From the NCBI RefSeq assembly GCF_000151315.2, contig NW_011887308.1, positions 63,649 through 127,648 of the forward strand: a stretch of DNA of 64,000 bases. The letters are read 5' to 3'. Under the pieces are notes generated by a model that worked only from the letters and a program-made list of their open reading frames with translations, was not told the DNA's origin and ran no database searches. Origin of the DNA: Capsaspora owczarzaki ATCC 30864. Taxonomy: Eukaryota > Opisthokonta > Filasterea. Within the stretch, counting starts at the first letter, position 1, and the number at the start of each line of letters is the position of its first letter. Position numbers and translations under genes: made by a program. Positions 12,001 through 64,000 of this stretch are shown in pieces.

Positions 12001-15000
12001 TCTCACCTGCACATTATTCTGGACCAATTCTTGAACATTAGCAACGCCGTCAAGGCTGCGCTCGATGAAGCGCGCCTAAACGAGCAGGCTGCTGCTCTGG
12101 GCCAACTTCGAGAACCACTTTCCAGCCAGGATGCCACCGAGCCTCGTCGTCCAACTCGTGGTATGGAGCTTCAGAGCAACTCAACCCGAGAAAAGTACCT
12201 TCCCAAGACGCTGGACCAACATTACGGTGACCTCGATGTTCTGGCGCAATTCGTTGCGCGTCACCTTGACCTGAACGAAGCGTTTTGGACGGGTGCGACG
12301 TGGAGCTCGGCAGACCATCAGTCGTTGATGTTGCTCATCACGCAGCTCTTCCACGTTCTTGCGCGTATTTTCCACCACCGGTTCCTTCTTGGATCGGAAG
12401 ATGCAAAGCACTCGGACTTTTGGCTGCGCGAGCTCATCAAGCGGCTCTTTACCATTTACAATCGCGACTTGCAGCCCTATCTTGGAATTGTTCGGTCGGG
12501 CGTGCGTTTGTCCCCATCCGGCACACTCCAGGTGGCTGATGCGCGCAAGCATGTTCTCGATGAATTGTCCAAACGAGCGTTGGCTGACGCGGCCATTCAC
12601 GAGCCTTCTCTGGCATCCCCTGCAGCTGCAAACGCGACATCGCCCTTCTCGGCCGCTTCAGAGCTGGCCGAGCGTCAGCAAATCGTGCGCAGAGTGCTCA
12701 AGCGGGGCAGCGCCGACGGATTGCGCGGATCCAGGGCTGCCTTGTTCACTGCAGCTTCTTCCGCGCAAAGCTCTTCGTTTGCCGAAGCGGAAGGTGCGTC
12801 TGTGGGATTCTCGTTGGGAGACATTCTCAACAGCTTCCGAAACGAAGGGATTCCCAGTGCCCTGCAGTCGGTGCGCTCTTGTCTTCACGCCGTGGGTGCG
12901 GGGCTTCGTTCGGTCTCGTCGAACGGGTACATTCCCTTGAGTCAAAGCGATAGTGCTAGCGGTCGACGCAGCAATAGCAGCATGGGGGAGTTGGACGACC
13001 CTTGGATGGAAGGGACTTTGGCTGATGAGAGTGACATTGACGACGGCCGTCGATCTCCTCGTGGCCTTTCGCGCTCCTCATCCTTCTCCTCTTCCGCTCA
13101 CCTCCTCGATCAGCTTGGATTTTATCCGACGCCAATGTTGCGACGCTCCAACACGCTCTCGTCATCTTTGGAGGCTGTTGCAGCGGCCGTCAAGCCGTTG
13201 GAGGCAGATGAGCAAGCGGCTTCAAAAACCCGCGCGCATGCTGAAGCTCAGGAGCAAAGTACGGCAACGGCCGCCGACCCATCTCCAACAGTACGCCGAT
13301 CACACCAGCGTCTGATGAGTCCACCAGCACCGGCAGCAGCAGCACTCACCCTGTCGCAGCAAAAACAACGCGACGATGCGCTGCTCACGCGTCGACTCGT
13401 TTCCCTCATCATGCTCATGACCCGCATGCGTGCTACCTCTGGCGTTGATAATGGAAGTGCATGGACCAATTTCCCGAATCAGCAAGGATTGAAGGGTGGT
13501 TCAAACGGTCTTGCTCCATTGGAGGCAAACCGACAGGATCAGTCATCCGCCCAGCAGGGAGCGTCAGGGACTCTGGCAAGAAAGCTTCCCGTGCCACCTT
13601 CTCCAGTCCGCGTCGCTGGACCGCGTCGTTGGCATCATTTGCATCATTTCGCCGAGATCAGTCTCATCTTGCGACGGCGCCTGCGTGCCGACAAGGCTCT
13701 CAATGCGGAACGGAGCAAACCAAATCGCTTGATGAACTTGGTTACCCATCGGGTTGAGCGCACTCTACTCGGCAACATTGAAGACGGCCAGTGTGACTCC
13801 ATCATTGAAGCACTCAAGTCCGACCACGCCCTGTCCTTTGGCATTCTTGCTTCAGATTTCGATGTGCGAGGAGCGGGCAACAAGCGTGCTTCTCTGGCTC
13901 ACTCGGCTTCGATGCCCGGCTCATTGGCCCGCAACTCGTCCTTGGCAATCGAGACTCCCAGTAGTGCCGTGGAAATTGATTGGAACCACAGCAGGTCTGG
14001 CAGCCCTGCCTACAACGCGTCGACCAACCACGCTCCTTCTCCGGCGCTTCAGCCCTCGAGTGCGACCTCCGCCACTTCCACCGAAGCTTCCGGCTCCATC
14101 AACAACAGTGGTGCTGCCAAACGCGGCGGACGAGTTCGTGTCAAGCAGCTGCTGACTTCCTTCCGTGACGCCCTTTCCACGGACGCGCTTCCTTTGGACC
14201 GCGCACTGTTTGTCGATTTGGCGCACATCTTTAGCTTGAGCTGTGCGATAGACCTGGACACGACAGACCAGGACAGTGAAGCGCTCAGCGCAGAGCAACG
14301 CGACTCCAACAAGACCGAGCGACGTGAGCGACAAGAGTTTTTGCTGGAGGCAGGCGCAGCCGAGTGCATCGTGTCGCTCTTGTCCTCCTCTGGCGGTGAC
14401 ATTTCCGTCGAAGTGGAAGCCACGCTCGAGTTTGGCATCTCATTGCTGACTGGCGGCTACGAGGCTGGGCAGCAAGCCATGCTGGCCTTTTTGATGCGAA
14501 GGCGCGATGTCGACTTTTTCGCATCCATTGCGACCATGATTGCACGCTGCACTGTGCTTGATTTCGACATGTGGAATCGTGACATGCTGGCTGCGCATTT
14601 GGGCGTGCAGACGGACTCTTCCTTGCTCGAGCTGGCTCGGCAGCAGCTCCCTGCTGCCAATGGCTGGACCTCGTCAAGCGCCGCCGCCGCCGCCGCCGCC
14701 GTCTCACGAACAAGCGTCTCTGACAAGCTCAGCGCGCCTACGCCGGTGGGCGCTGCCAGTCCCACGCCAGTCGCCTCGACGGTATCGGCGTCTCCGCTGC
14801 ACACAGCAACGCCGTTTGCCTCCGCCACTGACACGGTTGTTGTTGGCGCGAGCACGGCGTCGCCCATCGATGTCGAAGCCTTCCTATTTGCAGCTCGCAG
14901 CTGCAGCCAGCAAAACGATGCCCGGTTTGTGTGCCACCTCTTCCGCTTCTTGCAGCTCTTGTGCGAAGGCCACAACCACGAGTTCCAAAGCTACTTGCGG

Positions 15001-18000
15001 ACTCAGCCTGGGCATGTCAAGTCCTACAACTTGATTGTGTGCACCGTCGACTACTTGCTCCGGTTGCAGGAAAAGTTTAGCGATTTGTACTGGTTTTACT
15101 TTGACAAGCCGACCATTGACGCGCAAGGTCGCAAGCTCATGTCGCAGTCGATTACGATTGCCAAGCAGGTGTTTGAGTCGCTGACCGAGTACATCCAAGG
15201 TCCATGCATTGAGAATCAGCTGTCCCTGGCCTCGTCCCGCCTCTGGGATGCTGTGAATGGTTTCTTTGCCATTTTCGCCGGCTTGCAGGATAAGCTGTCC
15301 TCAGACCCGACCCAAGTTGAGCTCCTGCGAGAGTTTTGCTCGCTCGAGCAGTCCATGATTACGACGCTTCTGGCCATGCTCGAGGGCACTGGCAATCGCG
15401 GGGTCGAGTCCATTCCCCGGCTCATGGTGGACGTTGTCTTGGAGTGCTTCTCATCCATCGAGAAAACCTTCCATTTCTGCGACACGTACATCAAGCTCAA
15501 GGATATGGCCACGTCGCTCGCCTTCCGAGATTACGACCTCAACCTTGACGGCTGGATTTCCATGGATGAATTCGAAACCATCATGCGGCGCCAGAACATG
15601 TACACTGAAAGCCAAATCCGTGACTTTATGCTGCGGGCTGATGTGAACGGCGATGGCCGCTTGGATTACACTGAGTTTACAGAGCGCTTCCATCAAGAGG
15701 CGCTTGAAATTGGATTTTGGCTTGTCGTGCTGATCAAGCAGCTCATGGACTCTTTCAACGTCGAGGTTAGCTCTGAGCAACACGACTGGGAAGACGTCGA
15801 AGACCCTGCAGAAGGAATTGAGCCGACCGACGATGCCTCCGCTTCCTCTTCCGGGTTTGAGGTGTTCAACGCCGACCCTGCCGCCTCCCGCTCTTCCAGC
15901 CTTGAGCAACGGTTGCGCCGGTTCTGCAAGTCGGCGAGCTTCCGTCACCTATTGCAGTACTTTTCAAAGAATCTCGGACGCATCGAAGTCATCGGTCGGA
16001 ACGGCTCGCCCGAGCGTGTCTACTTCCAGATCAAGACCTCCTGGCGATCTCAGTGGGAGCAGCCGCAGGTCCAGGACTCGAAGCGCGAGTTTTTGAGTGA
16101 AATGCTGGACGAAGACTCGCGCGCCAAGTTTGCCATGTTTGTTTCGTTCGCCGAGGACACCATCTATGAGATGAGTCACTCTGCCGCACTTTCCCAAACT
16201 GACAGCTCAGAGTTACTCGAGCGTGCGTTTGCGCATCGCAACATGTACTTTGACCCCGCTGTCTCTCGCATGCAGGGATTGCTGGTTGTCGTTTTGCGAG
16301 GCTGCAAGCTGATTCTCAGGCCCAGGATTGCGCTGCAAGCTCTGGCGGAACGGGTTCGCAGCGGTTGGTCTGATCTGCTACAGTCCCGCGCTGGTCCCGA
16401 GAACGATGCTTCCGTTCCGCCCGTCCTCGGCGCGGTCACCGCGGCTGGCGCAGCGACGTCCGCAGCAGCAGCAGCAGCGACTTCTGCCTCGCAACCGGCC
16501 CCCGCCTTCTCCAAATCGGCGTTGCGACGAGGCCTTAGCCGATCTCACCCTGCAGCGGCAGGAGTCGCTGAGAGCGAGGATGCCACTGCGTTCATCTCAC
16601 GAAGCGATGGATCTTCCTTGTTCGAATGGATCTCGACGCGCGTTTTTGGACCCGTCAGTCCTCACCAGGCGACCATCCTGGACGATAGCGACGACACGAC
16701 CGCGTCGCCTCTGATCTCTCTCGCTGGGTACATTCCACAAATTGACGCGTCCAGCCTCGGCGTGGCCAGCTTCTTTGCCAGCTTGCACCATCGCGCACAT
16801 TTCCTGGTCGCCTGGCTGAGCATTCTGATCAACATTTTTCTCATGGCCTACAGGATGCAACACCACGAGGACGGTGGCGACGAGCTGCATGAACTCGATC
16901 CGTGGGTTAGCTTCTCTCTGTGGATTCTGCGGGTTGCCCATTTGTTCTGCTCGCTTGCGATGCTCGCGGGACATTGCGCCCTCAAGCTGCCAGTCGTCGT
17001 GTTCCGGGAAGAGAAGGAAATTGTCCAGTCCCTCCTTGCCGATGGCGTCTGGGTCGTCGAGCGTGAGCCAGAATCGTGGTATGGCTGGCCCCGTTTTGCG
17101 TGGCGACGCTTTGCCTTGGGCACGCGGTCCTTCCCGGGTCACTACTGGGACAAGGGGGTCAAGGATCAAGTCATGGAGCGCTACAATCGCAACGGCACCG
17201 ATTCTTACATTACAAACCTGCTTGGCCTGCAACCAGAGGCTGTTCCGGCGGCGAGCGCCGCGCCGCGGACCGCGCACAACGCAGACCAAGCGGAGCCCAG
17301 CCCAGTCGACGATGCCCTCGATCCCAACACTGTCAGCGCGTTTGCTCTGTTTTCGCGCGTGTGGCTGAATCACGTTGACATGCCCTATCTTCTCTGGAGG
17401 ATGGGAACGCTGTGCACAAACTGGGATTTTCTGTACAACCTCATGTACTTGGTCTTTTCGATGCTGTCGCTGTTTGTGTCGCCGTTCTTTGCATGCGTCC
17501 ACCTGTTGGATGTGGCAAGGCGCAACAAGACGCTGCAACACATTCTGAGCTCGTTCACTCGCTCTGGCCAGCAGCTTGTGCTCACTGTCGGCATGATGGC
17601 GATTGTCATTTTCATGTACACGGTTCTCGCCTTCTCGTACTTCCGTTCCGACTATGAGCGCGTTTGCACGGATTCCGAGTCTTCCGGCTGTCATCCTGAC
17701 GACACTCGGTGCGACAGTATTTTCGAGTGCTTTGTGTTCAATTTTGCCACGGGTCTCAGACAGGGCGGCGGCATTGGCGACGTTCTCGACGACCCCAACA
17801 ATGACCCGTACCGCATCATGTTTGACATGACCTTCTTCCTTGTTGTGATTGTGGTGTTGCTAAACACGGTTCAAGGTCTGATTGTGGACTCGTTCAGCTC
17901 GTTGCGCGAGCGCGAGGCCAACAACAGCGCAAACAAGGCCAACAAGTGCATGGTCTGCGGTGTGAGCCGCGCAACACTCGAGCATGTTCCGCACGGCTTC

Positions 18001-18624
18001 GAGGAGCACACCATGCACGAGCACAATCTGTGGGACTACCTCTTTTTCATGATGTACTTGCGGAAGAAGCCCGAGACGCAGTACACTGGGCAAGAGTCGT
18101 ACATTTCGACCATGCTTGCCGGACGCAACTATGATTTCTTCCCCGTCGGCATCCGACAGAGCGCCATGGCCGCTACCAGCAATCCGGCAGCGAGTCGCCT
18201 TGTTGCCTCACGCCCAGGCGTGAGCTCAGGCGGAAGCGCTGGACCGAGTGCCGCCTTTGGCGCTGGTGCCGATGCCGCAGAAGCAGCGCCACTCACCGCC
18301 GCTGATGTGAACACTATCGTGGTTGGCGCCTTGGAGCGCATGCTCACTTCACTGAATGATTCTGGCTACCACAGTGCTGGACAGCACACTGCGGCCAGTT
18401 CCACGGGCACCAGCACGCCGTTCGTCCTTCCCGCAGCTCGAGCCCGGTTTGGCACCTCGGGTAGCATGCGCTTGAACTCAATCATTCGCGACGCGTCCAT
18501 TGTGTCACCGATTCCAACAAACAGCAGCGATCGCAAGCGCGCGCTCCCCGCGACCCCCGCCGCCGGTTCGCTGGCCGAGGCCAACGACCTTGTTGAAGAA
18601 GAGGATGCCCAAACGGCCGTGTAA
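1..18624 (+). CDS. RYR: Ryanodine receptor-type calcium release channel, 5' end outside window
   Basis: Homotetrameric Ca2+ release channel of the endoplasmic reticulum. The frame is open from base 1, and the first in-frame start-like codon (GTG at 7) is internal, so the N-terminus lies upstream. At least 6205 residues are visible without an intron; animal RyRs have about 5000. Numbering from base 7: MIR/inositol-receptor-like region about 136-260; three SPRY domains about 557-850, 1199-1342 and 1489-1682; RyR repeats in two pairs at about 912-988 and 1050-1132, then 3279-3359 and 3449-3538; RIH-associated segment near 5000-5100 (TEYIQGPCIENQ); two canonical EF-hands about 5172-5235; membrane helices from about 5597; selectivity filter GGGIGD at 5920-5925; pore-lining helix about 5938-5963; C-terminal zinc motif with CMVC at 5981-5984 and the downstream HTMHEH. 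The filter and the paired RyR repeats separate it from IP3 receptors. Long Ser/Ala/Gln-rich linkers explain the extra length. Confidence 0.95.
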   Translation, partial: AAVDAAGIRLEDAFKRMLEQIDAATHAHAATLATSVEESALEADIPPAPAPAPTASPRSPNVPKDTSAPPPPVPPPPPRSNWQRSPTLNATTDSASLTSPTVQGLLRQSASSLMASASLPLPERVVLQEQRQSGANSFWRIELLRTHWAGAFLAWGQPFRLQNLSTGHYLACVPESPFCFQNVLHNTGFETVFALYPSLSSSEVFDDSVEPSMGVATIKTGDSMVYLRQVASGCWAHGVDATSRAVAAPTLLEGHFGQSPFSSPRHPTAQGGSRRSPSPPPPPAAVSSLTTPAVSNVALQPVPERELDVLLDGHVDDSFIVVHVVEDDAWDAAVVKACAAQFDLLVRKFDDAIMRQYSHRPESGLSVARGRWQLGAILEPLRLLLVDVIALFESSTTDRARVSIRQAFFRNHGLIAKVLDVLDLPFRDFLGPADLTTSECIMWSEMMTQFYTLLACFMRESAENCDYLAHSGRLDALLSRLGHNSDLLEVLRVIVWHPSVMHRVSEEHIRLLLSLMHKHGRDWRIVEVLSALCVSGGKAVRKNQNAIVRLIEQNSDLFFAGCVAEHMETIRATIGLSHANLCLEEDGGVLDRWYFEVTIMQMQGADSQLGAQASGSQAPGKDVSSLFRVGWSSYNFRSAAREGRGVGDDANSFGFDGERVWTCGLGRKADTLSSSPSAATTIAPDPQNLSSIGFDPQESLHSFTARLDRGDATAVAPQLPSLHGASVGDLSDRSTAAKSSLRTRPQTGISRQATVAQEETSPKRAATPPSLAPSASSRDLVDDAKPGFLKVGDTLGCALDLVKRSISFALNGKPLVVAFSELDQGVPYFPTISFADGVQFVVNFGDAEHPLRHLPADHNPVCKALLPGHSLELHHHVFAGGLLSKQNKRHALVGGRSWNQQLATFIPRPINASQVRLPAEIEIMKELIAENIHEVWSKGKVEAGWVWGPQRVDAEKKHNCLVPYNQLTDVEKEYDRKLAVETLQVLTALGYRLAYLSDSSGGGSSNKYGYDAPASLTRILEQVRANQILMELPDVPFLLSNGYKPTPIDTSRIILPAELLVLADMLAENTHDVWAQQRIREGWTFGMSKSAKHLRNPLLVAYNLLDEVGKKANRDTALETVKTILGLGFTITVPPKDKSKTKSGGRFKSLRDTAFLTVNDEPVPHTPGAEIGEPKLHASSFASSFTEGASLHRQSRDRPSHLRSFRLSHAFQVTIGKWYYEVELLTDGYMRFGWAEAAFHPRPEAGLGVGDDDLSFAYDGYLARKWNNSSASFGKQWHKHDVVGCLLDLEARRMSFTLNGVLLQMPQGGDAGSLSVAFEGFEVRHGFVPALSLADGQQVSVNLGDSPLQFFQRYGMQEGFEPVVNLHPNSEAQWSYTSEFGQYVACESETEDSLSEAGMAAASSSIGAAMSSRGHNAAPAMSIARVEAITSVTWRTKVNDRARLLAAGIISASAPAAKSALETDGHHLAQKPGSGCTDIKELAVPRATHQITPTEGHVFVISQAVVIENAKEADYEVLRASVGLRPRSTTPGRYCFEVRVMPGQDWRFLHIGWMQSPAQPNPLGSSEARFSYMFDSRALELVNAHLSALETEKEADATDLEDGPPMHRAPPLIRIGADSSASASERVVLCVADLIDNAIYFTVDGVPVPGTAYRFAFSREFILTPVICVVPTIRQPLRVRFDFAPPASMSSYMSAFFSREETSSGIYPQRLGLERLASLVWTRVCSPGSVLLQPGVTSRLISAVAPLDFESLAVQRGVQPQPPASDRGSSGLIDLSRLGTPSTGSEPTFVFFVAGAFSADSQLHNRDWPAMTRKSLVLTLPESDEAQDALVYYHKYNNLLMRRFSAELFKLIGSVCFGGNERGQALRRKIAPDVRLVCGVKEESLPVQVREAYFQLVTLLYMENARTGETASSVGVNTSDSTTTMPTGQSAVRRGHNGSSSTLTAFGLGTTRMSAMNGYVPSLAELTGGESDGATSGPRDPRLSVTSLNSLNSEATSTPRPGFAKLPSGRTRRLMEGLKQYVLEALKHLVGATAAGSRVPNEVIVVAMLALLDQMLVANELSESELQRLLVLVAPEALASNKSAVVVGRSSPPPFAAPGNALVRLRLGEATKFQLCMIFSHLCDALIRVRMFKAYAHLHQFIMQAKDDYAGGTPFDPIAFSKGHSIGAQPLHEFVVRRLDNPEHPATLRLQQQLALLCANVDDIPLITGALSAAGATSGLATVVSAAAAAEKQQKGAEASSSSADTRSHGSAFHRISPTSAGGAGLAATLQNLVHSSVSAITAEQQQSRMNDYVEALVKSSGAALFGEGSMYFHGFVTKQMMEWTAIPIADVQLVYATSRLLKRQFNLSTEVLAGLQRTFFVRYKDDVRRVYTLLATVRQMNLVLMDEAEAELAQDQLQSLISECYGADEQKQAVLRTLNAQEMIISVMRNMLSSGEQFVDIKDRMREIESLLFQRVLQRHAPCSLLLTQVDDAVSARLSETPEAFAADSIPSPPRKLLFLSAWVDAVSWYYEQWHSEAFASLLPGVGQSAAAFLHARQTHHTAHSDSLRSSAFVGIIDDALRRLAMRRMYTQVAMTSTDQRLEFLSVSAQEMQDLSEVPPAVALTFATEFILGNAQAQGEPRKWDNDAPASRFERPAQRGGLHQHLPPNGLQARIAELVRQHASHARKTLVRCCHFLQMFCRKNPENQRALFRHFDFLVCQANTGLPVFDVAIEIIRNNTELCLLLGEARINLLVETMCRYVNARRYPDQCIDLLMHAVRVNQSPVVINANIVRQALVKRPECLVLFSGQAAIRQQLIRLQSLVTSPSNKRTEQPLFGVLAYHVNLVALLAACAALPASANPSEAIASSSQLPSSTTVPTSLYLGDLRDSTALQEQAASRIILRSLVNMQDLQSVMVHPDTPAFMKPPFFDYLVSVFGVDNSAVFLMLVDKSFLPDMRLVAHMNQADVSRRVSVYIFQDIVPFIQRHSVYFVGAEQHATVIDVLLHLCYQLVKVCPGTQTLITVTRCLVELTQVLRPSLFLRLLRVFARDLYPLVPYTSLILKTVIALFERHTSYFGFAGDRVFGSANVEERHLAVLLYSRTLKFIKRHSEHEKYPTVAADAVQCLAALACALPPDYTDVHDVTDDDWALHDDELQKRAIRTLSSTGNGLLTRGSETGEDDLNSDSSGDECDEGDDSELEHPMNRSTSNMSPNLMNAASTVLRRRDSTALATPRRSSAALLRQQFSFSNALADQHQRSSSATSPSPVDFLTSSPQPSQPSAPTVATAASSVPPSYRPRPVDTSQVQVDEGVMRIVEQFAEHLHDKWAFSRKAEGWIYGEQLNDSLKTHPCLLPFAFLTEEFQQSNRLTAEESIKVLVKMGYQLEQAQGFSRRGSGMRRGSRADSAAVPASSEPVVALGSHDATLAEPSLLPSASSSSSSSPGSEAASRRGSGRPTAIRSPAELLRIAERYRPRPADLSAVVLAKNVLSIAERLAENAHEVWAADRMRAGWQFGPSRNNTTREHPCLIPYDMLTDDEKEYDRKLSQDTIKLLIASGYRIVPARPLSFDGNEALAPRRFAGIMLSAAVAFVSRAFEIPESVWLGTADEVTQRLRSMSFLAGAPPQAVSAAASSTTGKNKLPRSLRLVARRTQERARDQRIALDVIVPLLNKYFAIHEAYFSGTSLHGYASAFEKEQLSHMFDVLILVAKRELPLVSLRGVTPTARSSFWQNHRMLKTYKDCLCTMVRSLDVGMFARSLDVHYSDFVRVATSSHMESFMSWIALPVFVKFSGAFGEDFSALVTGRQSSTGTSGGTYSARGRIVATAMSAGPLDEGQFSPGVVTARKVLIDMAEQILRLSQSPEALEDARLRSLLGRAAAWVVILLPVATLKTQPTLLQEIKTIVRLLHTPGAIDNARFAADVAFPLVSSFVTHQFDNLVSARAAAAEQAESLFVPVGQAKSVESAKLDDTANELRLQNDISRTFSCALAMMDVRGRGCEYSPSTLCAGGLRLIRCMPAEQFVSHLHIILDQFLNISNAVKAALDEARLNEQAAALGQLREPLSSQDATEPRRPTRGMELQSNSTREKYLPKTLDQHYGDLDVLAQFVARHLDLNEAFWTGATWSSADHQSLMLLITQLFHVLARIFHHRFLLGSEDAKHSDFWLRELIKRLFTIYNRDLQPYLGIVRSGVRLSPSGTLQVADARKHVLDELSKRALADAAIHEPSLASPAAANATSPFSAASELAERQQIVRRVLKRGSADGLRGSRAALFTAASSAQSSSFAEAEGASVGFSLGDILNSFRNEGIPSALQSVRSCLHAVGAGLRSVSSNGYIPLSQSDSASGRRSNSSMGELDDPWMEGTLADESDIDDGRRSPRGLSRSSSFSSSAHLLDQLGFYPTPMLRRSNTLSSSLEAVAAAVKPLEADEQAASKTRAHAEAQEQSTATAADPSPTVRRSHQRLMSPPAPAAAALTLSQQKQRDDALLTRRLVSLIMLMTRMRATSGVDNGSAWTNFPNQQGLKGGSNGLAPLEANRQDQSSAQQGASGTLARKLPVPPSPVRVAGPRRWHHLHHFAEISLILRRRLRADKALNAERSKPNRLMNLVTHRVERTLLGNIEDGQCDSIIEALKSDHALSFGILASDFDVRGAGNKRASLAHSASMPGSLARNSSLAIETPSSAVEIDWNHSRSGSPAYNASTNHAPSPALQPSSATSATSTEASGSINNSGAAKRGGRVRVKQLLTSFRDALSTDALPLDRALFVDLAHIFSLSCAIDLDTTDQDSEALSAEQRDSNKTERRERQEFLLEAGAAECIVSLLSSSGGDISVEVEATLEFGISLLTGGYEAGQQAMLAFLMRRRDVDFFASIATMIARCTVLDFDMWNRDMLAAHLGVQTDSSLLELARQQLPAANGWTSSSAAAAAAAVSRTSVSDKLSAPTPVGAASPTPVASTVSASPLHTATPFASATDTVVVGASTASPIDVEAFLFAARSCSQQNDARFVCHLFRFLQLLCEGHNHEFQSYLRTQPGHVKSYNLIVCTVDYLLRLQEKFSDLYWFYFDKPTIDAQGRKLMSQSITIAKQVFESLTEYIQGPCIENQLSLASSRLWDAVNGFFAIFAGLQDKLSSDPTQVELLREFCSLEQSMITTLLAMLEGTGNRGVESIPRLMVDVVLECFSSIEKTFHFCDTYIKLKDMATSLAFRDYDLNLDGWISMDEFETIMRRQNMYTESQIRDFMLRADVNGDGRLDYTEFTERFHQEALEIGFWLVVLIKQLMDSFNVEVSSEQHDWEDVEDPAEGIEPTDDASASSSGFEVFNADPAASRSSSLEQRLRRFCKSASFRHLLQYFSKNLGRIEVIGRNGSPERVYFQIKTSWRSQWEQPQVQDSKREFLSEMLDEDSRAKFAMFVSFAEDTIYEMSHSAALSQTDSSELLERAFAHRNMYFDPAVSRMQGLLVVVLRGCKLILRPRIALQALAERVRSGWSDLLQSRAGPENDASVPPVLGAVTAAGAATSAAAAAATSASQPAPAFSKSALRRGLSRSHPAAAGVAESEDATAFISRSDGSSLFEWISTRVFGPVSPHQATILDDSDDTTASPLISLAGYIPQIDASSLGVASFFASLHHRAHFLVAWLSILINIFLMAYRMQHHEDGGDELHELDPWVSFSLWILRVAHLFCSLAMLAGHCALKLPVVVFREEKEIVQSLLADGVWVVEREPESWYGWPRFAWRRFALGTRSFPGHYWDKGVKDQVMERYNRNGTDSYITNLLGLQPEAVPAASAAPRTAHNADQAEPSPVDDALDPNTVSAFALFSRVWLNHVDMPYLLWRMGTLCTNWDFLYNLMYLVFSMLSLFVSPFFACVHLLDVARRNKTLQHILSSFTRSGQQLVLTVGMMAIVIFMYTVLAFSYFRSDYERVCTDSESSGCHPDDTRCDSIFECFVFNFATGLRQGGGIGDVLDDPNNDPYRIMFDMTFFLVVIVVLLNTVQGLIVDSFSSLREREANNSANKANKCMVCGVSRATLEHVPHGFEEHTMHEHNLWDYLFFMMYLRKKPETQYTGQESYISTMLAGRNYDFFPVGIRQSAMAATSNPAASRLVASRPGVSSGGSAGPSAAFGAGADAAEAAPLTAADVNTIVVGALERMLTSLNDSGYHSAGQHTAASSTGTSTPFVLPAARARFGTSGSMRLNSIIRDASIVSPIPTNSSDRKRALPATPAAGSLAEANDLVEEEDAQTAV

Positions 18625-54368: not shown

Positions 54369-54651
54369 GCTTTGGAGGTGAGCGAACAAAGTGGGACTGA
54401 GCACAGACAGATCAAGATATAAGAGACTGTGCAACGTACTGTATGCAATTGTGGAAGTCTGTAGAACGGGGGAAATTCAACATTGGAAGCGGCTCGATTT
54501 ACTATGAACGAATGCACAGTCATTCATGATCGTACCATGCTAGTGAACCACCAGACCTCATCTCGTTCCGTTGTGTAGAGTGGCAGCTAGCTTTGAGCCA
54601 TTGCCAGACGAAATCGAAATCCCCCCACAGTTTTAGTCTACAGTCTACATT
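54369..54651. promoter_or_regulatory. POLR3H side of the original divergent promoter region
   Basis: The 283 bp between the POLR3H ATG and the transposon. With the 46 bp on the other side of the element, about 330 bp would originally have separated the POLR3H and KXD1 start codons, implying a compact divergent promoter. No specific motif identified. Confidence 0.5.
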
Positions 54652-54653
54652 TA

Positions 54654-54689
54654 CAGTGTTCGGCAATGGTGATGGAACACTCGTGCGGA
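54654..54689 (+). repeat. Left terminal inverted repeat of the Tc1-type element
   Basis: 36 bp starting CAGTGTTCGGCAATGGTGAT; matches the reverse complement of 57388-57423 with one mismatch. Confidence 0.97.
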
Positions 54690-54994
54690 AAGATTGAACG
54701 AGTGGACTTTGGTATTGAACACACATGTTTTGAACATTTCTTAATCGACATTGCTGCAATCGGTTTTGAACAATGTGAGCATTGGACAAAGTTGATCCGG
54801 ACAAAAATGCAAATAACTTTGAACAGCACCCGTTGAACAGCCGCTTTTGAACAACAAGGTCCGAACGACACTGCGACATTGAAAAAACCGTGACTCGCGA
54901 TTGGACAAAGAGTTTTTCACATTGAACACTGCACTCTAAATAATGAACGCTGCCTACTTTGGCACCTGAACAGTCCTGCATTCGCCAACGAGTG

Positions 54995-56944
54995 ATGCCC
55001 GTACACGCCAACGACGACCAGGAGATTGCCCAAGCTACCCCTCGCAAGCGCCAGCGCATGTCCCTGGACTTGCGCAGGCAGATTGTTGCATTGCGCGACG
55101 AGGACTTGTGCACCTTTCGCGAGATTACAGACTATCTTGATGTCCCGGTCGCAACCGCGCACAATGTGTGCACCAAGTTTCGCGAGACTGGTATCATAGA
55201 GCCTCGTGCCTCCAAGCCGCCCAATCGGACAGTCGTGACGAGGGAAATGGAGGAATTCCTGGCGGAAGAAATCGACAAGGACTGCGCCGTGACCAACGGC
55301 ATGCTGGCCGACAAGTTGCACGAGAAGTTTGATGTGAAAGTCAACGCGACGACAATCGGTCGGCATGTCAAGCGCATGGGCATTGATTTCAAGATGATCT
55401 ATGAGCAGGTCACTCGCAAAAACTCGATGGTGGTCAAAATGAAGCGCCAAGAGTGGTTTCAGGACTTGGCCAATGCGAACATTCCCCAATCGCGCATCTT
55501 CTACGTCGATGAGTGTGGCTTCAACATTAACATGCATCGCAGCCGTGGGCGTGCTCCGAAGGGCAAGCGCGCGATCAAGAACGTCGATTCCATTCGTGCT
55601 CCGAACTGGACACTAATTTGTGTGATTGGCGATACGGGTGTCGTGCACTACGACATCCACCACGGCCCTGTCAACCAGCATGTATTCCAACGGACGATGG
55701 TCAAGTTTATTCACGTGCTGGAACTTGAGCCACACACTGCCGGCGACTCCTTCCGCGACGACGAAGACCACGGCGCGAGCGACGATGAGCACGATAGCGA
55801 CCAGGCTCCAGAGCAAGAGCTCGAGGATGAAGGGTCTGCCAAGTATGTCGAGTTTCACGGGAAGGTTCTGAGCGCAGTGGAGCCATCACAGAGCGAGCAC
55901 AACAACAGCAATCACACCCACCACCACCACAACCACAACAACAACAGCAGCTCGAGTGCTCCAGCGCCCTCCTCTTCTTCTGCCCCTGCACCTCCCAGTA
56001 CCGGCGCTGGGACATCGATGCAGCATGCTGGACCATCAGCGCAGCATGCCGGCACGTTGACGCAGCATGCCGCAGCCTCATCCACTTCGGATCGTGCTGC
56101 AGACGGTGTGTCGCTCCATGCACAGCAACGTACGCAGCCGCGAGATACTCATGCGGCGTCGGAACTACTACGACGCCGGCGTGGTCGGCTACCGCGAGGG
56201 CACCATCGCTCAACAGCTTTTACAGACGACATCCAGGATGAGGACAACTCTGCCGACGACGTTGGGCAGTGGTCTTCCGCAGCAGCAGCAGCAGCAGCAA
56301 GTCACCCAGCATCCTCCACAGGCACCTCTTCCCTGCGACATCCAATGCGGACGCGTCGTCTCCAACAACTTGTGCAGCCGTCATCCCAAACTTCAGCCCG
56401 CGCTGCAGCACCCAGACGCACATCCACCTACACCTACCCTCCCGCTGTTGAAGCCCTATGGACGAACGATGCCGACGACGACGACGATGATGATGATGAC
56501 GACGATGAGGAAGCTTATCACCCTTCCCAGGCCGAATGCTTTCAAGACGAGGCGGAGGAAGGCAACGACAACGCAGATTTGCTGATCGCATCGGAAGAGA
56601 AGTACGGCCGCTCTTTCCCGCGAGATGGCAGAACGTACAAGGCGTGGATTGTGATGGACAATGCGAGCTTCCACAAAACAGCCAGCCTGCGCAACTACTT
56701 TTGGCGTAGGAACTACCGTCTGCTGTATCTTCCGCCGTACTCGTCATTCCTCAACCCGATTGAATATGTTTTTGGCAAGATTAAATCTTGCTTCAAGCGC
56801 ACTCCTCTGAAAAAAGGCGAGAAAGTCCATCGCCGCATTGAAGATGCTGTTCGCCAAGTGTCGGCGCAAAATTGCAGCCGCTCCATTGTCCATGTCAGCA
56901 AGTATGCCTTCCCTTGTGCGCAGCTCGAAGATATCAAGGATTAA
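54995..56944 (+). CDS. Tc1/mariner superfamily transposase with a large insertion in the catalytic domain
   Basis: 649 residues from the ATG at 54995; the frame is open a little further upstream without an ATG. The N-terminal about 120 residues form paired helix-turn-helix DNA-binding regions (MSLDLRRQIVALRDEDLCTF onward). The DDE residues are D172 (FYVDECGF), D555 (WIVMDNASFHK) and E590 (LNPIEYVFGK), a DD34E spacing for the last pair. D172 and D555 are 383 residues apart, where Tc1 relatives have roughly 90. The extra 290 or so residues are low complexity: acidic, His/Asn/Ser-rich and Arg-rich stretches, including a run of eleven Asp near 515. Otherwise the catalytic signature is complete and the frame unbroken. 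Confidence 0.93.
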   Translation: MPVHANDDQEIAQATPRKRQRMSLDLRRQIVALRDEDLCTFREITDYLDVPVATAHNVCTKFRETGIIEPRASKPPNRTVVTREMEEFLAEEIDKDCAVTNGMLADKLHEKFDVKVNATTIGRHVKRMGIDFKMIYEQVTRKNSMVVKMKRQEWFQDLANANIPQSRIFYVDECGFNINMHRSRGRAPKGKRAIKNVDSIRAPNWTLICVIGDTGVVHYDIHHGPVNQHVFQRTMVKFIHVLELEPHTAGDSFRDDEDHGASDDEHDSDQAPEQELEDEGSAKYVEFHGKVLSAVEPSQSEHNNSNHTHHHHNHNNNSSSSAPAPSSSSAPAPPSTGAGTSMQHAGPSAQHAGTLTQHAAASSTSDRAADGVSLHAQQRTQPRDTHAASELLRRRRGRLPRGHHRSTAFTDDIQDEDNSADDVGQWSSAAAAAAASHPASSTGTSSLRHPMRTRRLQQLVQPSSQTSARAAAPRRTSTYTYPPAVEALWTNDADDDDDDDDDDDEEAYHPSQAECFQDEAEEGNDNADLLIASEEKYGRSFPRDGRTYKAWIVMDNASFHKTASLRNYFWRRNYRLLYLPPYSSFLNPIEYVFGKIKSCFKRTPLKKGEKVHRRIEDAVRQVSAQNCSRSIVHVSKYAFPCAQLEDIKD

Positions 56945-57387
56945 ATACACTAGCTTGATGCTCTTCCAACCGAGCTTTCCAGCGAGGTGATGATGACTAC
57001 AGTAAAAAAAAAAAACCAAAAAAAAAAACCAAAACCCAAGCGAGAATAAAAAAATTCTGTGTTTTGCTTTTGCGTGCTTTTGTAAATATGATCTTTTTGA
57101 CATGTCCACCATGCTTGGAGATGCCGGGAAGCTGCGATAAACCACTCCTTTGAGATTGCATGACTGTTCAATCTGGCATGTTCGGTGCCGTGGAGAAGCT
57201 TGTCCAGTCATTGCAGAACATTGTTCAATTCACTTGGTTCGATTGCCATGGGCAGGTCGTTCACTTCGAATTGCAGCAACGTTCAGTACGACTATGTTCA
57301 CTCCCACGTTTGTTCGGTCAGAATTGTTCATTTTACGTTTGTTCAAATCAATTCTGTTCAATCGCCAAACGCACAAAGTTCGATTGG

Positions 57388-57423
57388 TCCGCACAAGTGT
57401 TCCATCACCATTGCCGAACACTG
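57388..57423 (-). repeat. Right terminal inverted repeat of the Tc1-type element
   Basis: Reverse complement of the left end with one mismatch; followed by the TA target duplication at 57424-57425. Confidence 0.97.
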
Positions 57424-57471
57424 TATCATACTTCCCTATCTATTCAGTCCAACAGAAACACACACAACAAA

Positions 57472-58312
57472 ATGACAGACGAGCTGTCTGGACAAGCACC
57501 TCCACCACCGCCATTGGACGCGAGCACCGTGTTTGCCAACAAGATTACTTCGGGCATCGATCACGGCGCCGTCAAGGACATGCTACGGCAGCAGCGGCTA
57601 ATGTGAGCACACCCCCCCCAACTCTTGTTGATCTTGCGATGGGTGCACCCGTCGGACGCAAAGCGGGGGCCGCAAGCAACAGCGGGAGGGACTGCACTGA
57701 ACTTGGGGCTTGCTTTGGGCTGGAGCAGACTCGGTCGCTTTGAGCGGACGAACGCGCGGCTGTCCCGCTTCAACGAGCATCTGGACAGCGTGCTTGGAGC
57801 TCACACTGCTCGGTTCAAGTCATACACACACCAGCTGGTGGACGCCAAGAAAGACCTCGAGTCCATCTTTCGTCGCATTCGGTGAGGCGCTTTTTGTGTT
57901 TTGTTGTTGGATCGCGTTGATGCTGAGCATTTGTTCAGTGAGGAATTCAACAAGAAGGATGTTCATGATTTCAACAAAATCGAGGCGACTCTGTTTGTTG
58001 ATACTTGGACGGCGCCGAGCGTCGGTGGATGTTGAACATCTCTCATCACTCACCGCGAGTTCGTTCTCTGCTGTCAGTGCATTGCGGGCCAAGCTCACTC
58101 AGCAGTATCCCGAGGCCTTCTTTGGGCTGGAGATGCCCGGCAACATTTCAGATGACGACGATGATGATTATGGCGACGAGGACGAAGAGCACGACCCAAG
58201 GTCGAAGACAGCTGCACGACCACAACACCCAGTCGAGCAGGAATCAGCCGCGACCGAGTCAAGCGAGGTGGCCGCTCCAGCCGATGATGGTGCTGCGCCT
58301 GATTCGGCGTGA
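57472..58312 (+). CDS. KXD1: KxDL motif protein 1, BORC subunit, three exons
   Basis: Small coiled-coil subunit of BORC, the complex that couples lysosomes to ARL8 and kinesin. Exons 57472-57602, 57729-57881 and 58078-58312 give 172 residues (human 176). The conserved centre matches human KXD1: ILGRFERTNARLSRFNEHL, KDLESIFRRIR, then KLTQQYPEAF, with both introns placed where homology requires. The N-terminus is Pro-rich, and the C-terminus is acidic with an Asp run. The Tc1-type transposon ends 48 bp before the ATG, so the proximal promoter has been displaced or replaced by transposon sequence. Confidence 0.95.
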
Positions 58313-58404
58313 GAACTGCTGAGGGCCACTTTGGCGCACCCGACACCAGACCAAATGCGGTTCATTCGAGTTGAACTTCATGCTAACACTTTCAACACAC
58401 TTCT

Positions 58405-59028
58405 TCAGCCTTCCAATCCCGCCGAAAGCCTTCTGAATCGCGCCATCAACCTTACATAACGAGTGACCTTCGATCTGGAACTTTGACACGCCGACAGATT
58501 CATTCCTTGTTCAGTTTTCAGGTTGTTCGAGTTCTGACATCTCAATGAATTGCACGGCGCTCTGGCATCTTCCAGCCGCTCTTCTTGCTGAACGTTATCT
58601 GCACGAGTTTCATACTGCAGAGCCAGTTGTTCACTTTCTGCTGCGCGGGCGGCTGCAGCAAGCTCGTTGAGGCGCTGGCGTTCCTTTCGGTCGGCTGCAA
58701 TAGCTTTCGTCATTTCAGCGATCTCTGCTCGGAGTCCTGCTCGCTCGTCGGTCACCTCGTTGGGCGGCTGATTGGCTTGCTGGTCACCTTGCCTGGCTGG
58801 CTCGTTGACTGGCGCGTTGGCTCGCTCGTTGGCTGGCTGCTCCGCTGGCTGCTCGTCTGGCTGCAACTGGTCTGCGGCTCGAACTGCTTCGCGTGTTGCT
58901 GACTCCTCCAAGCGAGGGCGCACAATCTCATGTGGTGGGCGGTCTTGAGTGGGCGAGGCAAGTCGGCGAAGTTGCTGCTGTGGGGCGCTGCTTTGGCTGC
59001 CTTGGCTGTATTGGCTGGAATCAGACAT
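58405..59028 (-). CDS. Stand-alone N-terminal module of the Crinkler/RHS-like family, partial copy
   Basis: 207-residue frame beginning MSDSSQYSQGSQSSAPQQQL. The first 125 or so residues are nearly identical to the first exon of the gene at 61692-63891: the SPTQDRPPHEIVRPRLEES block, NEPARQGDQQANQPPNEV and a coiled coil (RAGLRAEIAEMTKAIAADRK). After about residue 150 it diverges, and no NTPase exon follows: KXD1 ends 92 bp beyond. It is a partial copy of the array unit. It could still make a short coiled-coil protein, or be a relic. Its ATG overlaps the stop of the neighbouring gene by 8 bp. Confidence 0.6.
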   Translation of the reverse strand: MSDSSQYSQGSQSSAPQQQLRRLASPTQDRPPHEIVRPRLEESATREAVRAADQLQPDEQPAEQPANERANAPVNEPARQGDQQANQPPNEVTDERAGLRAEIAEMTKAIAADRKERQRLNELAAAARAAESEQLALQYETRADNVQQEERLEDARAPCNSLRCQNSNNLKTEQGMNLSACQSSRSKVTRYVRLMARFRRLSAGLEG

Positions 59029-61406
59029 TTGGGGGGGGGGGCGGGGAATGACTGACCACCCAATGCAAGTTCAGTGAGAGTCCAATGGATTCCCCTGTTT
59101 GGTGAGCAGCCGCTTGGATTTGGGGTCGATGTGTTGACCAGCATTTGAAGGGAGCGGTACCGTTGAACAACCGCTCCGTCTCCGCCCTCCTCCAACAAGG
59201 TCTCTTTGAATGCACTTTACTTAATACGACAGAAAACAATGCCAAAGGTGGGATCAGCGGGTTGTAGGGGTTGGGGGGGATCCTGCGCGTGAAGGAAATA
59301 CACAAAGCAAATTGCTGAACGCGCTGGACATTTGCAGGTATTGCCTGTCTATCCTGAAACACGTGAGCATCGATAGTGTGGTATGGCTGCTCCGGAAAAG
59401 TCTCGAAAATATCCACGGGCACCACGAAGTACAGTTGGGGAACGCGATCAGCTGGCATTCGTTGAATGGCCTCGCTCAATCGTTGCGCTTTGACAGGATG
59501 GTCTTGACTGACGGTCATCTGCAGGAACGTGTGAGGCGAAATGATGGCGTCGATGGCCGGATGGTTGCCGGAGGATGGACGAAAGTAACGGTTCTGGAGA
59601 TGGAGATCAACGTCGTCAAGTTTGTGAAAGCGGACATATGTGAGCTGCGGAATGGTCAGAGAGGACTCAGGCGCTTGGGCGTTGGACAAGTTACGAATTC
59701 GGAAAGTGCCACCCTGACAGATGAGACGATGGGCGAACCTCTCAAGCAGATGTCCGCGAAGCGCCGCAGTCTCTCCAAACGCGGCAGACGCACTTAAAAA
59801 GGTGATGAGATGATCGTATTCGGCTTCATACACACGATCCAGAAATCGGTCGGCCACCCAGTCAGACGCAAACACGAGGCGGGGGCGCTGGAACGGTTCG
59901 GACTCGGATTGGAGATCGATGTGAAGGATTCGGTGGGATATATCCTGCTCTCCAGCGATCTGACCCACGGCGTCACGAATAGCCGCGACCGTGCAACGGT
60001 GAAGCGCCTCCTGTAAAAGCCATTCGGCCATCTCCAGAGTCATATAAAGATTGAGCACATGTCGTGCGATGCCGCCCCAACGATGAAACCGCTCCTCGGC
60101 AGCTTGCACTTGCTCTAGATCCAGGTTTAGCTGGCGCATACATGCAAGAAGCTCGTCCCACGACCACACTGGCATGGACATCATGGGATAGGAGGTGTAC
60201 TCGAGCTCCTTGTAAATTTTGCGGCATAGTGGTGTGACGAGCAGGGTGTAGGCATTGTAGAAACCAGGTGCGTGGCCATCGACAAGGTACCAGACGTTGG
60301 GGCGACGGTTCTGAAGGATGTCTCGGAAGCTGTCGAAAGTGCCCAGCAACACATTCCCATCCGTTTGAAGAAGGTATCTGTCCGTGGTTGGCTTCACTGC
60401 AGGCTCGTACACCACAGTCAGCGGACGGTGTTGCTGAAACAAGCGATAGACAAAGTATGCCGAAAAGAAGGTCTTGCCAATGCCTGGATTGCCGGTGACA
60501 ATACGCCCGTTTTTTTGCGCAGGATTCGCAGATGGGTTGATGATTGCGTCGAAAAGTCCATAGTAGCAGCTGCGGACCATGAGGACTGACCCCAGCAAGT
60601 AGTTCCCCAGCCAGAACACGCCGTCAGGAAGAGTCAAGAATCTCGTTTCATTGGGTTGAAGCGGCTGGTCTGGGTCACCATTCACCTCGACCATCTGGTT
60701 GGTGACAGGATCCAATCGAAAGACCCGCTCGGTCACTTGGCCGGCGTGAAGGGCTTGCCAAAATCTGACAAGCGGGTCAGTGTCTGGCACTACCCAAAAT
60801 CGCGAGAGCAAAAGTGAGCACTTTTCAACGTCGCGCCTTTCAGCACAAGCATCTCGATAGAATGGACGGCATACATTGATTCGAGGGTTGGAAGGCTGGG
60901 GCTGGGGTCAGGGCGAACAGGCGTATGCGAGTTGCTGCAAGTGCCGCGCTTGTGCTGCCGATGACTGCCATGACATCGTCTGCGCGAGTTTCATACTGCA
61001 GAGCCAGTTGTTCATTTTCTGCTGCGCGGGCGGCTGCAGCGCGCTGTCGGAGCGTCTGCCTTTCAGCTTCGTCGGCTGCCAGAGTTTGGGTCATTTCAGC
61101 GATCTCTGCTCGGAGTCCGGCTCGCTCGTCGGTCACCTCGTTGGCCGGCTGATTGGCTTGCTGGTCACCTTGCCTGGCTTGCGCGTTGGCTTGCGCGTTG
61201 GCTTGCGCGTTGGCAGGCAACTCGTTTGTGGCTCGAACTCGGCCAGCTTGCATGTCTGTTCCGCGGCTTGCGTGCTCCTCCAAGCGAGGGCGCAAAATCT
61301 CATGTAGTGGGCGGTCTTGAGTGGGCGAGGCAGGTCGGACGGCGCCACGAAGTTGCTGCTGCTGGTCGCTTGAAGCTGTGTGGCGGGACAGGTTGAGATC
61401 TGCCAT
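59021..61406 (-). CDS. Crinkler/RHS-like NTPase with nuclease-like domain, copy 2
   Basis: Two exons, 60875-61406 and 59021-60789, joined in phase 1 across an 85-bp intron (GTATGC donor); 766 residues. Exon 1 codes MADLNLSRHTASS, a Gln/Asn/Ala-rich stretch with a short ANAQ repeat, and a coiled coil. Exon 2 starts LPDTDPLVRFWQAL and holds a P-loop NTPase (Walker A GNPGIGKT at about 277-284, Walker B-like WYLVDG, MPVWSWDELLACMRQ, RWGGIARHVL), all typical of the Crinkler/RHS family. A C-terminal region follows with LLERFAHRLI, AIDAIISPHTFLQMTVSQDH and LYFVVPVDIF, resembling the restriction-enzyme-like fold reported for such proteins. The last 60 or so residues extend beyond the end of copy 1 and are unrelated to it. 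No signal peptide or LxLFLAK-type header is seen. Confidence 0.8.
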
Positions 61407-61654
61407 TTTTGGAAGACAAAATGAACAAAAACAATGAGCTATTGATACCTCAACATCGACCACAGCCCCTCTTCTCTCGATCCCAATACAAGTTCAGTAA
61501 GAGTCCAATAGATTCCCCTGCTTGGTGAACATTCGCTTGGATGCGGGGTTGATGTTGATGGACATTGGAAGGACTGTATCACTGAATTCGAAAAAGAGCA
61601 GAGGAACGCACCACCTTTTCAGCATGAACCCCGTTCGAATTCTGTGAAAAGGCT

Positions 61655-61660
61655 TTTATT
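61655..61660 (-). terminator. AATAAA polyadenylation signal of the copy-1 gene
   Basis: AATAAA on the minus strand 31 bp after the stop at 61692. The corresponding stretch after copy 2 (near 59220) is similar but lacks the exact hexamer. Confidence 0.55.
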
Positions 61661-61691
61661 CGACATAACAGGAAATGCAAAATTGGTGGGA

Positions 61692-63891
61692 TCAGACGAT
61701 AGCAGCAGGGTTTTGATTCGGGACGATTGTGAACTCGATGCACAATGCAAACTGCCGGGCGTTCTGGACATTCGCAGGAACAAGACGAGGATCTTGATAC
61801 GCGCGACCTTCGGTAGTGTGGTATGGCTGCTCCGGAAAAGTCTCGAAAATATCCGCGGGCACCACGAAGTACAGTTGGGGAACGCGATCAGCTGGCATTC
61901 GTTGAATGGCCTCGCTCAATCGTTGCGCTTTGACAGGATGGTCTTGACTGACGGTCATCTGCAAAAACTTGTTGGGCGAGATGATGGCGTCGATGGCCGG
62001 ATGATTGCTGGCGAGCGGCTGAAAGTAGCGGCTCTGGTCACCGAGATCAACGGCGCCAAGGTGGTTGAAGGAGACGTGGGTGAGCGGCGGAATGGTCAGA
62101 ATGGACACAGGCGCTTGGGCGTTGGACAAGTCACGTACTCGGAATCTGCCGCCCTGAATGATCGTTTGATGAACATAATTCTCAAAGATAAGTCCGCGGT
62201 TCGCGGCATGCTCTGGATGCCAGGCAGACCTACGCAGAAAGGCGAGGAGCTTCTGGCGTTCCTCTCTTAGCGCACGAGTCACAAATTTGTCGACCACCCA
62301 GTTAGACGCGAAAATTAGGCCGCTGGCTTCGAAACTGTCCGGTAATACCTTGATGTGAAGGACTCGGTGTGAAATATCTTGCTCACCAGCAATCTGACCC
62401 ACGGAATTGCGAACAGTCTTGACATTGCATGCATTAAGCGCCAGGTTCAAAAGTATTTCGGACTGAGGCAGAGTCAAACCACCATCGAGCACGTGACGCG
62501 CGATGCCACCCCAACGATAAAACCGCTCCTCGGCAGCTTGCAGTCGCGCTTGAGTTGCATTCCTCTGGCGGATACATGCAAGAAGCTCGTCCCACGACCA
62601 CACTGGCATGAACATCTTGGGGTTGGAGTCTTTTTGAAGTTCCTTCAAAATGTCCTTGCGTGGTGATGTAACGAGCAGGGTGTAAGCATTGTAGATGCCA
62701 GCGGGATGGCCATCGACAAGGTACCAGGTCCTGGGATCCAGATTCGAAAGCTGGTCGGAAAAGGACTGCAGCGGAATGCTGCCTGTGTGGACGGTTAGGT
62801 TCGGCTGCAGCCGGTATCGAATATCCGATCCGGGCTGAGCAGGCTCGTAAACCACAGTCAGCTGAGGGTGTTGCTGGAACAAGCGATACACAAAGTATGC
62901 CGAAAAGAAGGTCTTGCCGATGCCTGGATTGCCGGTAACGATCCAGCTGTTTTTATGCTCAGCATTCGCAAGTGAGTTGATGATTGCGTCGAAAAGTCCA
63001 TAATAGCAGCTGCGGACCATAAGGACTGATCCCAGCTTGTAGTTCCCAAGCCAGAACACCCCGTCAGGCAGCGTCAAGAACCTCGTTTCATTGGGTTGAA
63101 GCGGCTGGTCTGGGTCACGATTCACCTCGACCATCTGGTTGGTGACAGGATCCAATCGAAAGACCCGCTCGGTCACTTGGTCGTCTTGAAGGGCTCGCCA
63201 AAATTTGACAAGCGAGTTGTCATCAGGCACTACAAAAAAAAAAAAAAAAAAATCGAGAGAGCAAAGTGAGCATTCTTCATCATCGCTCCTTTTCCTAATA
63301 CACGCATCTCAATAGAATGCAAGACATACAGAGCACCGGGCCTTGTGCTGCGGCTGGGGCTGGGGCTGAGTCGAGACGAGCTTCCAGACGGTTGAGACGC
63401 TCGTTGGCCATGTTGAGTCCTATTTGGATCTGTCGCGCGTCTGCCTCATACTGCAGAGCCAGTTGTTCTTGTTCTGCATTACGGGCGGCTGCATTACGGG
63501 CGGCTGCAGCAAGCTCGTTGAGGCGCTGGCGTTCCTTTCGGTCGGCTGCAATAGCTTTCGTCATTTCAGCGATCTCTGCTCGGAGTCCTGCTCGCTCGTC
63601 GGTCACCTCGTTGGGCGGCTGATTGGCTTGCTGGTCACCTTGCCTGGCTGGCTCGTTGACTGGCGCGTTGGCTCGCTCGTTGGCTGGCTGCTCGGCTGGC
63701 TGCTCGTCTGGCTGCAACTGGTCTGCGGCTCGAACTGCTTCGCGTGTTGCTGACTCCTCCAAGCGAGGGCGCACAATCTCATGTGGTGGGCGGTCTTGAG
63801 TGGGCGAGGCAGGTCGGCGAAGTTGCTGCTGTGGGGCGCTGCTTTGGCTGCCTTGGCTGTATTGGCTGGAATCAGACATTGAACCAGACAT
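61692..63891 (-). CDS. Crinkler/RHS-like NTPase with nuclease-like domain, copy 1
   Basis: Two exons, 63330-63891 and 61692-63229, joined in phase 1 across a 100-bp intron with donor GTATGT and a T20-type tract before the acceptor; 699 residues. Exon 1 codes the Ser/Gln-rich start MSGSMSDSSQYSQ, a Gln/Asn/Pro-rich region and a coiled coil. Exon 2 holds LPDDNSLVKFWRALQ, Walker A GNPGIGKT (about 287-294), Walker B-like WYLVDG, MPVWSWDELLACIRQ, RWGGIARHVL, then AIDAIISPNKFLQMTVS and LYFVVPADIF, ending NPAAIV. The family occurs as secreted effectors in oomycetes and chytrids, as RHS proteins in trypanosomes, and in some free-living eukaryotes. Here a host-encoded intracellular role is more likely, since no export signal is visible. 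An upstream ATG (MSG) was preferred over the internal MSDSS. Confidence 0.83.
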
Positions 63892-64000
63892 GGAAAAAGA
63901 GAAAACAAAAATGACCGACCTCCACGCTCGCTGGTGATGTTTTATGAAAGTCAAAATTCATTTATGCTGACTGGAGCAAGGGGAGGGTGCTGGGGTGGTG
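63892..64000. other. Upstream region of copy 1 at the window edge
   Basis: Putative promoter side of the copy-1 gene; only 109 bp are visible. The array may continue beyond the window. Confidence 0.4.

Follow-up and report, generated by a model that had tools for sequence, protein, structure and literature searches.

We find that two complete genes and one gene relic in a 64,000-nucleotide stretch of the Capsaspora owczarzaki ATCC 30864 genome belong to a multi-copy family which almost certainly, by sequence homology, encodes Crinkler/RHS-type (CR) proteins. The stretch, positions 63,649 to 127,648 of contig NW_011887308.1 (C17 below), is referred to as the window, and coordinates without a contig name are window positions. 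The Capsaspora CR genes extend an already known class, as a new branch. Their likeliest role, to which we give a probability of about 65% as the best explanation, would be that of an NTP-switched nuclease used in biological conflict. The analysis itself shows homology, the NTPase fold, conserved motif residues, the lineage-specific grouping of the copies, their mosaic sequences and a split between N-terminal header and C-terminal body at an intron.

Two CR genes and a relic on the minus strand

On the minus strand, from 63891 to 58598, the locus consists, in order, of a complete two-exon gene (copy 1), a second complete two-exon gene (copy 2) and a header-only relic:

63330..63891, minus strand: copy 1 header exon, with a Ser/Gln/Pro/Ala-rich N-terminus, an RRPxSP...RPRLE motif and, further on, a stretch judged by eye to be coiled-coil-like; NCBI model CAOG_009152 (P0002)
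63230..63329, minus strand: copy 1 intron between header and body, phase 1, 100 nt (GTATGT...TTGTAG); the splice agrees with P0002
61692..63229, minus strand: copy 1 body exon, a STAND-like NTPase with a restriction endonuclease (REase)-like C-terminus
60875..61406, minus strand: copy 2 header exon, with a different N-terminus of the MADLNLS type
60790..60874, minus strand: copy 2 intron between header and body, phase 1, 85 nt
59021..60789, minus strand: copy 2 body exon, similar to the other bodies as far as about 59260
58598..59028, minus strand: header-only relic of a third copy; no body follows the header

The original prediction, made from the letters of the window alone, had described two full genes and one leading module. 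Our analysis confirmed this arrangement, and the four motifs that it quoted (GNPGIGKT, MPVWSWDEL, RWGGIARHVL and IDAI...LQMTVS...LYFVVP) are all present in both bodies. In the residue numbering of the copy 1 body, the NTPase has its Walker A motif at 100-107, the Walker B aspartate at D173 and GGIAR at 241-245, and the REase-like C-terminus contains E350, D414 and Q424xT426. The frame of copy 2 stays open for ~77 codons beyond the usual C-terminus. The header of the relic is identical to that of copy 1 across one 300-nt stretch and 95% identical across a longer match, and its DNA match to other headers ends at 58610 (copy 1) or 58598 (copy 2 and a copy on contig C6). The database model of copy 1, CAOG_009152, looks truncated; it ends at 492 residues, fewer than the 512 codons over which the body exon by itself stays open. 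Two more family bodies, one of them with stops, lie in the opposite orientation ~5 kb past the window (C17:132516-136371).

Relationship to Crinklers and RHS proteins

The copy 1 body matched six proteins named Crinkler effector with E values of 1.2e-64 to 5.9e-45 over 88-96% of its length. The bodies contain a P-loop NTPase with both Walker A and Walker B motifs, and the best resemblance of the C-terminal domain is to the restriction-endonuclease fold, a weak match by which a nuclease fold is weakly favoured. All ten bodies with an open reading frame retain E350, D414 and Q424, and Lys434 is variable. Of the Crinkler/RHS architecture originally proposed, the Crinkler homology and the pairing of an NTPase with a nuclease-like domain were retained; direct RHS membership was not established. 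The profile searches suggested as a check gave no match for PF20147 (the oomycete Crinkler header, LxLFLAK) in the two window headers and the relic at E up to 1, and none for the Pfam family RHSP (PF07999) in the two window bodies at E 1. A genome search with RHSP also returned nothing, but the control genomes gave no match either. Among 34 aligned family members RHSP found one protein, P0051 (E 2.9e-5), whose 24.1 bits fall just under the cut-off of 25. In PADLOC the best match had E 0.0048 and covered the P-loop region only, and the best PDB sequence match had E 0.68 with the protein and 0.02 with a profile (P-loop region). A genome search with nSTAND3 gave generic P-loop matches only, two of them CR bodies, and the Foldseek matches on viral models were AAA+ proteins.

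The same body occurs, with different N-termini, in several groups. Crinkler-like proteins of Batrachochytrium dendrobatidis (P0015-P0018) share it at 34% identity over 89-90% of the query; their N-terminus differs from the low-complexity and coiled-coil-like Capsaspora header. The oomycete NTPase-HTH-REase (HTH, helix-turn-helix) Crinklers of Peronospora, Phytophthora and Hyaloperonospora share it at 24-33% identity and have the same header-plus-body plan, an architecture described in passages of PMC5289972, although several carry the PF20147 header that the window headers do not match. Puccinia CR proteins have the same body, but P0026 and P0044 (and, by name, P0048) carry a PB1 header unlike that of Capsaspora; P0026 and P0036 branch beside the Capsaspora group with support 82/86, on a long branch. 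The trypanosome RHS proteins (PF07999) resemble the Capsaspora family in being multigene and mosaic by gene conversion, as part of PMC7563717 reports, and their link to it runs through P0051. They differ in that the Capsaspora window bodies have no direct RHSP match and the CR loci no association with transposons of the RVT_1, DDE_3 or DDE_1 types. According to passages of PMC5289972, Crinklers have diverse headers, an NTPase plus REase makes up slightly over a quarter of their C-termini, and the class also occurs in free-living eukaryotes and plants. The surprise that the original prediction expressed at such genes in a non-pathogen was therefore already answered in print. Our literature search, which saw its wider results in part and did not cover Zhang et al. 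2016 (NAR 44:3513), found no paper on Capsaspora CR genes; the mentions of Capsaspora in PMC6299283 and PMC3482391 concern other subjects.

A family dispersed over nine contigs

We searched the 27.5 Mb genome of the same strain with the copy 1 body and obtained at least 18 matches (E 1.3e-5 to 0) in at least 15 loci on nine contigs. Ten of the 15 body loci have an open frame and five contain stops; at the open C10 body the header sits in another frame. In the protein database, where 7995 candidates were scored, the body had 53 matches, 10 of which are Capsaspora's own gene models, and a profile search added one protein, P0054, also from Capsaspora. Chance similarity or contamination was rejected as a source of the window genes, since CAOG gene models of the same genome match and nine contigs carry copies. 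When the ten open Capsaspora bodies were placed in an unrooted tree together with 27 sequences from outside, they formed one side of a branch with support 98/92, which fits the expansion of one ancestor in the Capsaspora lineage. As an aside, eight of 12 CR clusters lie within 250 kb of a contig end (P 0.029, 5000 random placements); the threshold was chosen post hoc, and we give this no weight.

Header and body are separate exons

In 12 of the 15 body loci the body is directly preceded by a short intron of 75-108 nt, and each of these 12 body exons starts at the second codon position (phase 1). Donors at C15a, C1, C15b and C4b were set 2 nt from the site called by our script, following the P0006 model. 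No intron boundary was found at C10 and C17:134.8k, and at C7:1231k the boundary is ambiguous. Of the eight NCBI models that include a header, four (P0001, P0002, P0003 and P0006) place a splice at the header/body boundary, and the other four (P0004, P0008, P0009 and P0012) are modelled differently. Because header and body are separate exons with a phase-1 intron between them, recombination in frame is possible.

The headers, whose types vary and which as separate exons are distinct from the bodies, are Ser/Gln/Pro-rich and then, by eye and with no predictor, coiled-coil-like. Variants of the RRPxSP...RPRLE motif occur in seven of the eight headers examined, and the first 70 residues of these eight headers, which do not include that of copy 2, contain no strongly hydrophobic stretch. 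To this extent the missing secretion signal noted in the original prediction was borne out. Furthermore, a header-like exon at C5:323057-323383 is 50% identical to the copy 1 header over 117 residues (E 1.3e-13), although it has no RRPxSP motif. NCBI model CAOG_03545 (P0055) joins it to ~228 residues unrelated to CR bodies, and this part has a single other match, P0056, which has no header. CAOG_03545 is possibly a header captured by an unrelated gene, a single case that depends on the NCBI splice.

Mosaic exchange among copies

Copies of the family have recently undergone mosaic exchange. Over 448 compared codons, two synonymous changes separate copy 1 from the C6 gene, but across the last ~60 the two diverge sharply, and along copy 1 the header and body match different partners. 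Between two body types, 120-nt blocks at 45% identity adjoin blocks at 88%. The original description of an amplifying family thus agrees with what we see, in that the family is multi-copy and its copies have exchanged sequence recently.

We measured pairwise ratios of nonsynonymous to synonymous divergence (dN/dS, Nei-Gojobori) for ten of the 15 body loci, the five stop-bearing ones being dropped. Three close pairs gave 0.57, 0.61 and 0.80, and the pairs among C10, C15a and C1 gave 0.99, 1.16 and 1.28. The bootstrap interval of dN-dS lies below zero for copy 1 with C6 and for copy 2 with C17_133k, and spans zero for the three C10/C15a/C1 pairs and for C4a/C3. Positive selection is unsupported, as no pairwise dN/dS is significantly above 1. 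In the C10, C15a and C1 bodies the nonsynonymous differences concentrate between the P-loop region and the nuclease-like catalytic strands, both of which are nearly fixed.

The neighbouring transposon

Two features outside the CR family give the context of the relic:

54652..57425, plus strand: DNA transposon located at a TA inside a duplicated segment; it encodes a DDE_3 transposase and has inverted ends of 48 nt
57424..58590, plus strand: KxDL-motif gene segment that matches contig C1 near 3.56 Mb at 97% identity

The flanks of the transposon, 54500-54642 and 57424-58590, match one stretch of C1 (94% and 97%) that has no element, with a TA at the junction. This empty counterpart, C1:3561767-3563078, carries the KxDL gene (E 1.3e-11). 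The right edge of the KxDL segment, at 58590, and the break of the CR relic, at 58598-58610, are 8-20 nt apart. In the simplest reading, the third CR copy was interrupted or replaced by the KxDL segment, into which the transposon inserted itself.

The inverted ends of the element close at 57425, ~1.2 kb from the relic break; a transposon is indeed nearby, as originally reported, and the 1.3 kb given for its distance is corrected accordingly. The idea that it fits a habit of RHS loci to attract insertions did not hold, since the element lies in the duplicated segment upstream of the KxDL gene and outside the CR genes. The proposed mapping of paralogues against transposons showed no enrichment either: a single CR cluster among the 12 has an RVT_1, DDE_3 or DDE_1 match within 10 kb, a count that random placements reach in 67% of cases (P 0.67); the sets of these matches are lower bounds, and Helitrons, CACTA and MULE elements were not covered. 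A transposon-attracting locus is therefore rejected for these three types. Elsewhere the window's transposon has fragments on C7 and C8; its three near-complete copies are on C17, C6 (1.06 Mb) and C1 (3.23 Mb), and the one on C17 alone is near a CR gene. At the left end of the window, an open frame of more than 6200 codons occupies 1-18624 and runs off the window.

Discussion

In the model that we favour, a CR protein consists of a low-complexity and coiled-coil-like header, a STAND-like NTPase that includes a helical region, and a REase-like domain at the C-terminus. Most probably, the header would place or dock the protein, binding and hydrolysis of NTP by the STAND module would act as a switch, perhaps with oligomerisation, and the C-terminal domain, once switched on, would bind and cut nucleic acid. 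We infer NTP switching, nuclease activity, site of action and conflict role from the features described above. The target in this conflict could be nucleic acid that invades Capsaspora itself; with about equal plausibility, the proteins could act in the cells it attacks. Sequence alone does not discriminate between defence within the cell and delivery to prey, and the originally suggested action inside the cell against mobile DNA is possible.

The original prediction took its host to be free-living, which is doubtful. Passages of PMC12422584 relate that the first isolate of Capsaspora came from a Biomphalaria snail, that the organism attaches to snail cells and kills them, that it attacks and devours schistosome sporocysts, and that its prey includes trematode larvae and other cells; part of PMC4007536 terms it a symbiont. 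Such habits, together with homologues named as effectors, lend something to the idea that CR proteins are delivered to snail cells or to trematode prey, in the way that oomycetes deliver Crinklers to plants. The absence of a classic signal peptide is no bar, as signal peptides are disputed for Crinklers too (within section 11 of PMC5289972). However, the lack of a hydrophobic N-terminal stretch in the headers examined, the lack of a PF20147 match in those of the window and the lack of evidence for export leave us regarding delivery as rather unlikely. We are more doubtful still that the family consists of domesticated regulators, in which a nuclear, non-cutting NTPase scaffold would act on Capsaspora's own chromatin or RNA. 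T. cruzi RHS proteins, whose genes are mosaics from recombination, are mainly nuclear according to part of PMC7563717, and the QxT motif with a variable Lys434 could mean binding without cutting; but the retention of E350, D414 and Q424 speaks against this, and turnover that leaves five stop-bearing copies is unlike a housekeeping regulator. Spread as the cargo of mobile elements is very improbable. The copies are dispersed and a DNA transposon lies close to the relic, yet that transposon sits in the duplicated KxDL segment, CR clusters are no nearer to RVT_1, DDE_3 or DDE_1 matches than random places, and the sole inverted repeat of at least 25 nt in 54500-64000 is the transposon's own.

Alongside the conflict nuclease that we prefer, we offer a speculative extension that we ourselves think improbable, namely that Capsaspora has a modular, recombining set of nuclease switches. 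The header exon would be portable to other genes (the one case being CAOG_03545), the P-loop region and catalytic strands would be kept nearly fixed, and body residues ~130-170 and ~250-405 would be exchanged between divergent types as a recognition surface. If this were true, a self-diversifying, NLR-like nuclease system, used in defence or predation, would exist in a single-celled organism closely related to animals.

The best-known Crinkler-type proteins serve pathogens of plants and amphibians as weapons. Capsaspora is predatory, can be cultured and is closely related to animals, and its compact family, most of it intact, makes the role of such proteins outside plant disease testable by knockouts and tagging; the intron between header and body offers a concrete route for the module shuffling inferred for the Crinkler class.
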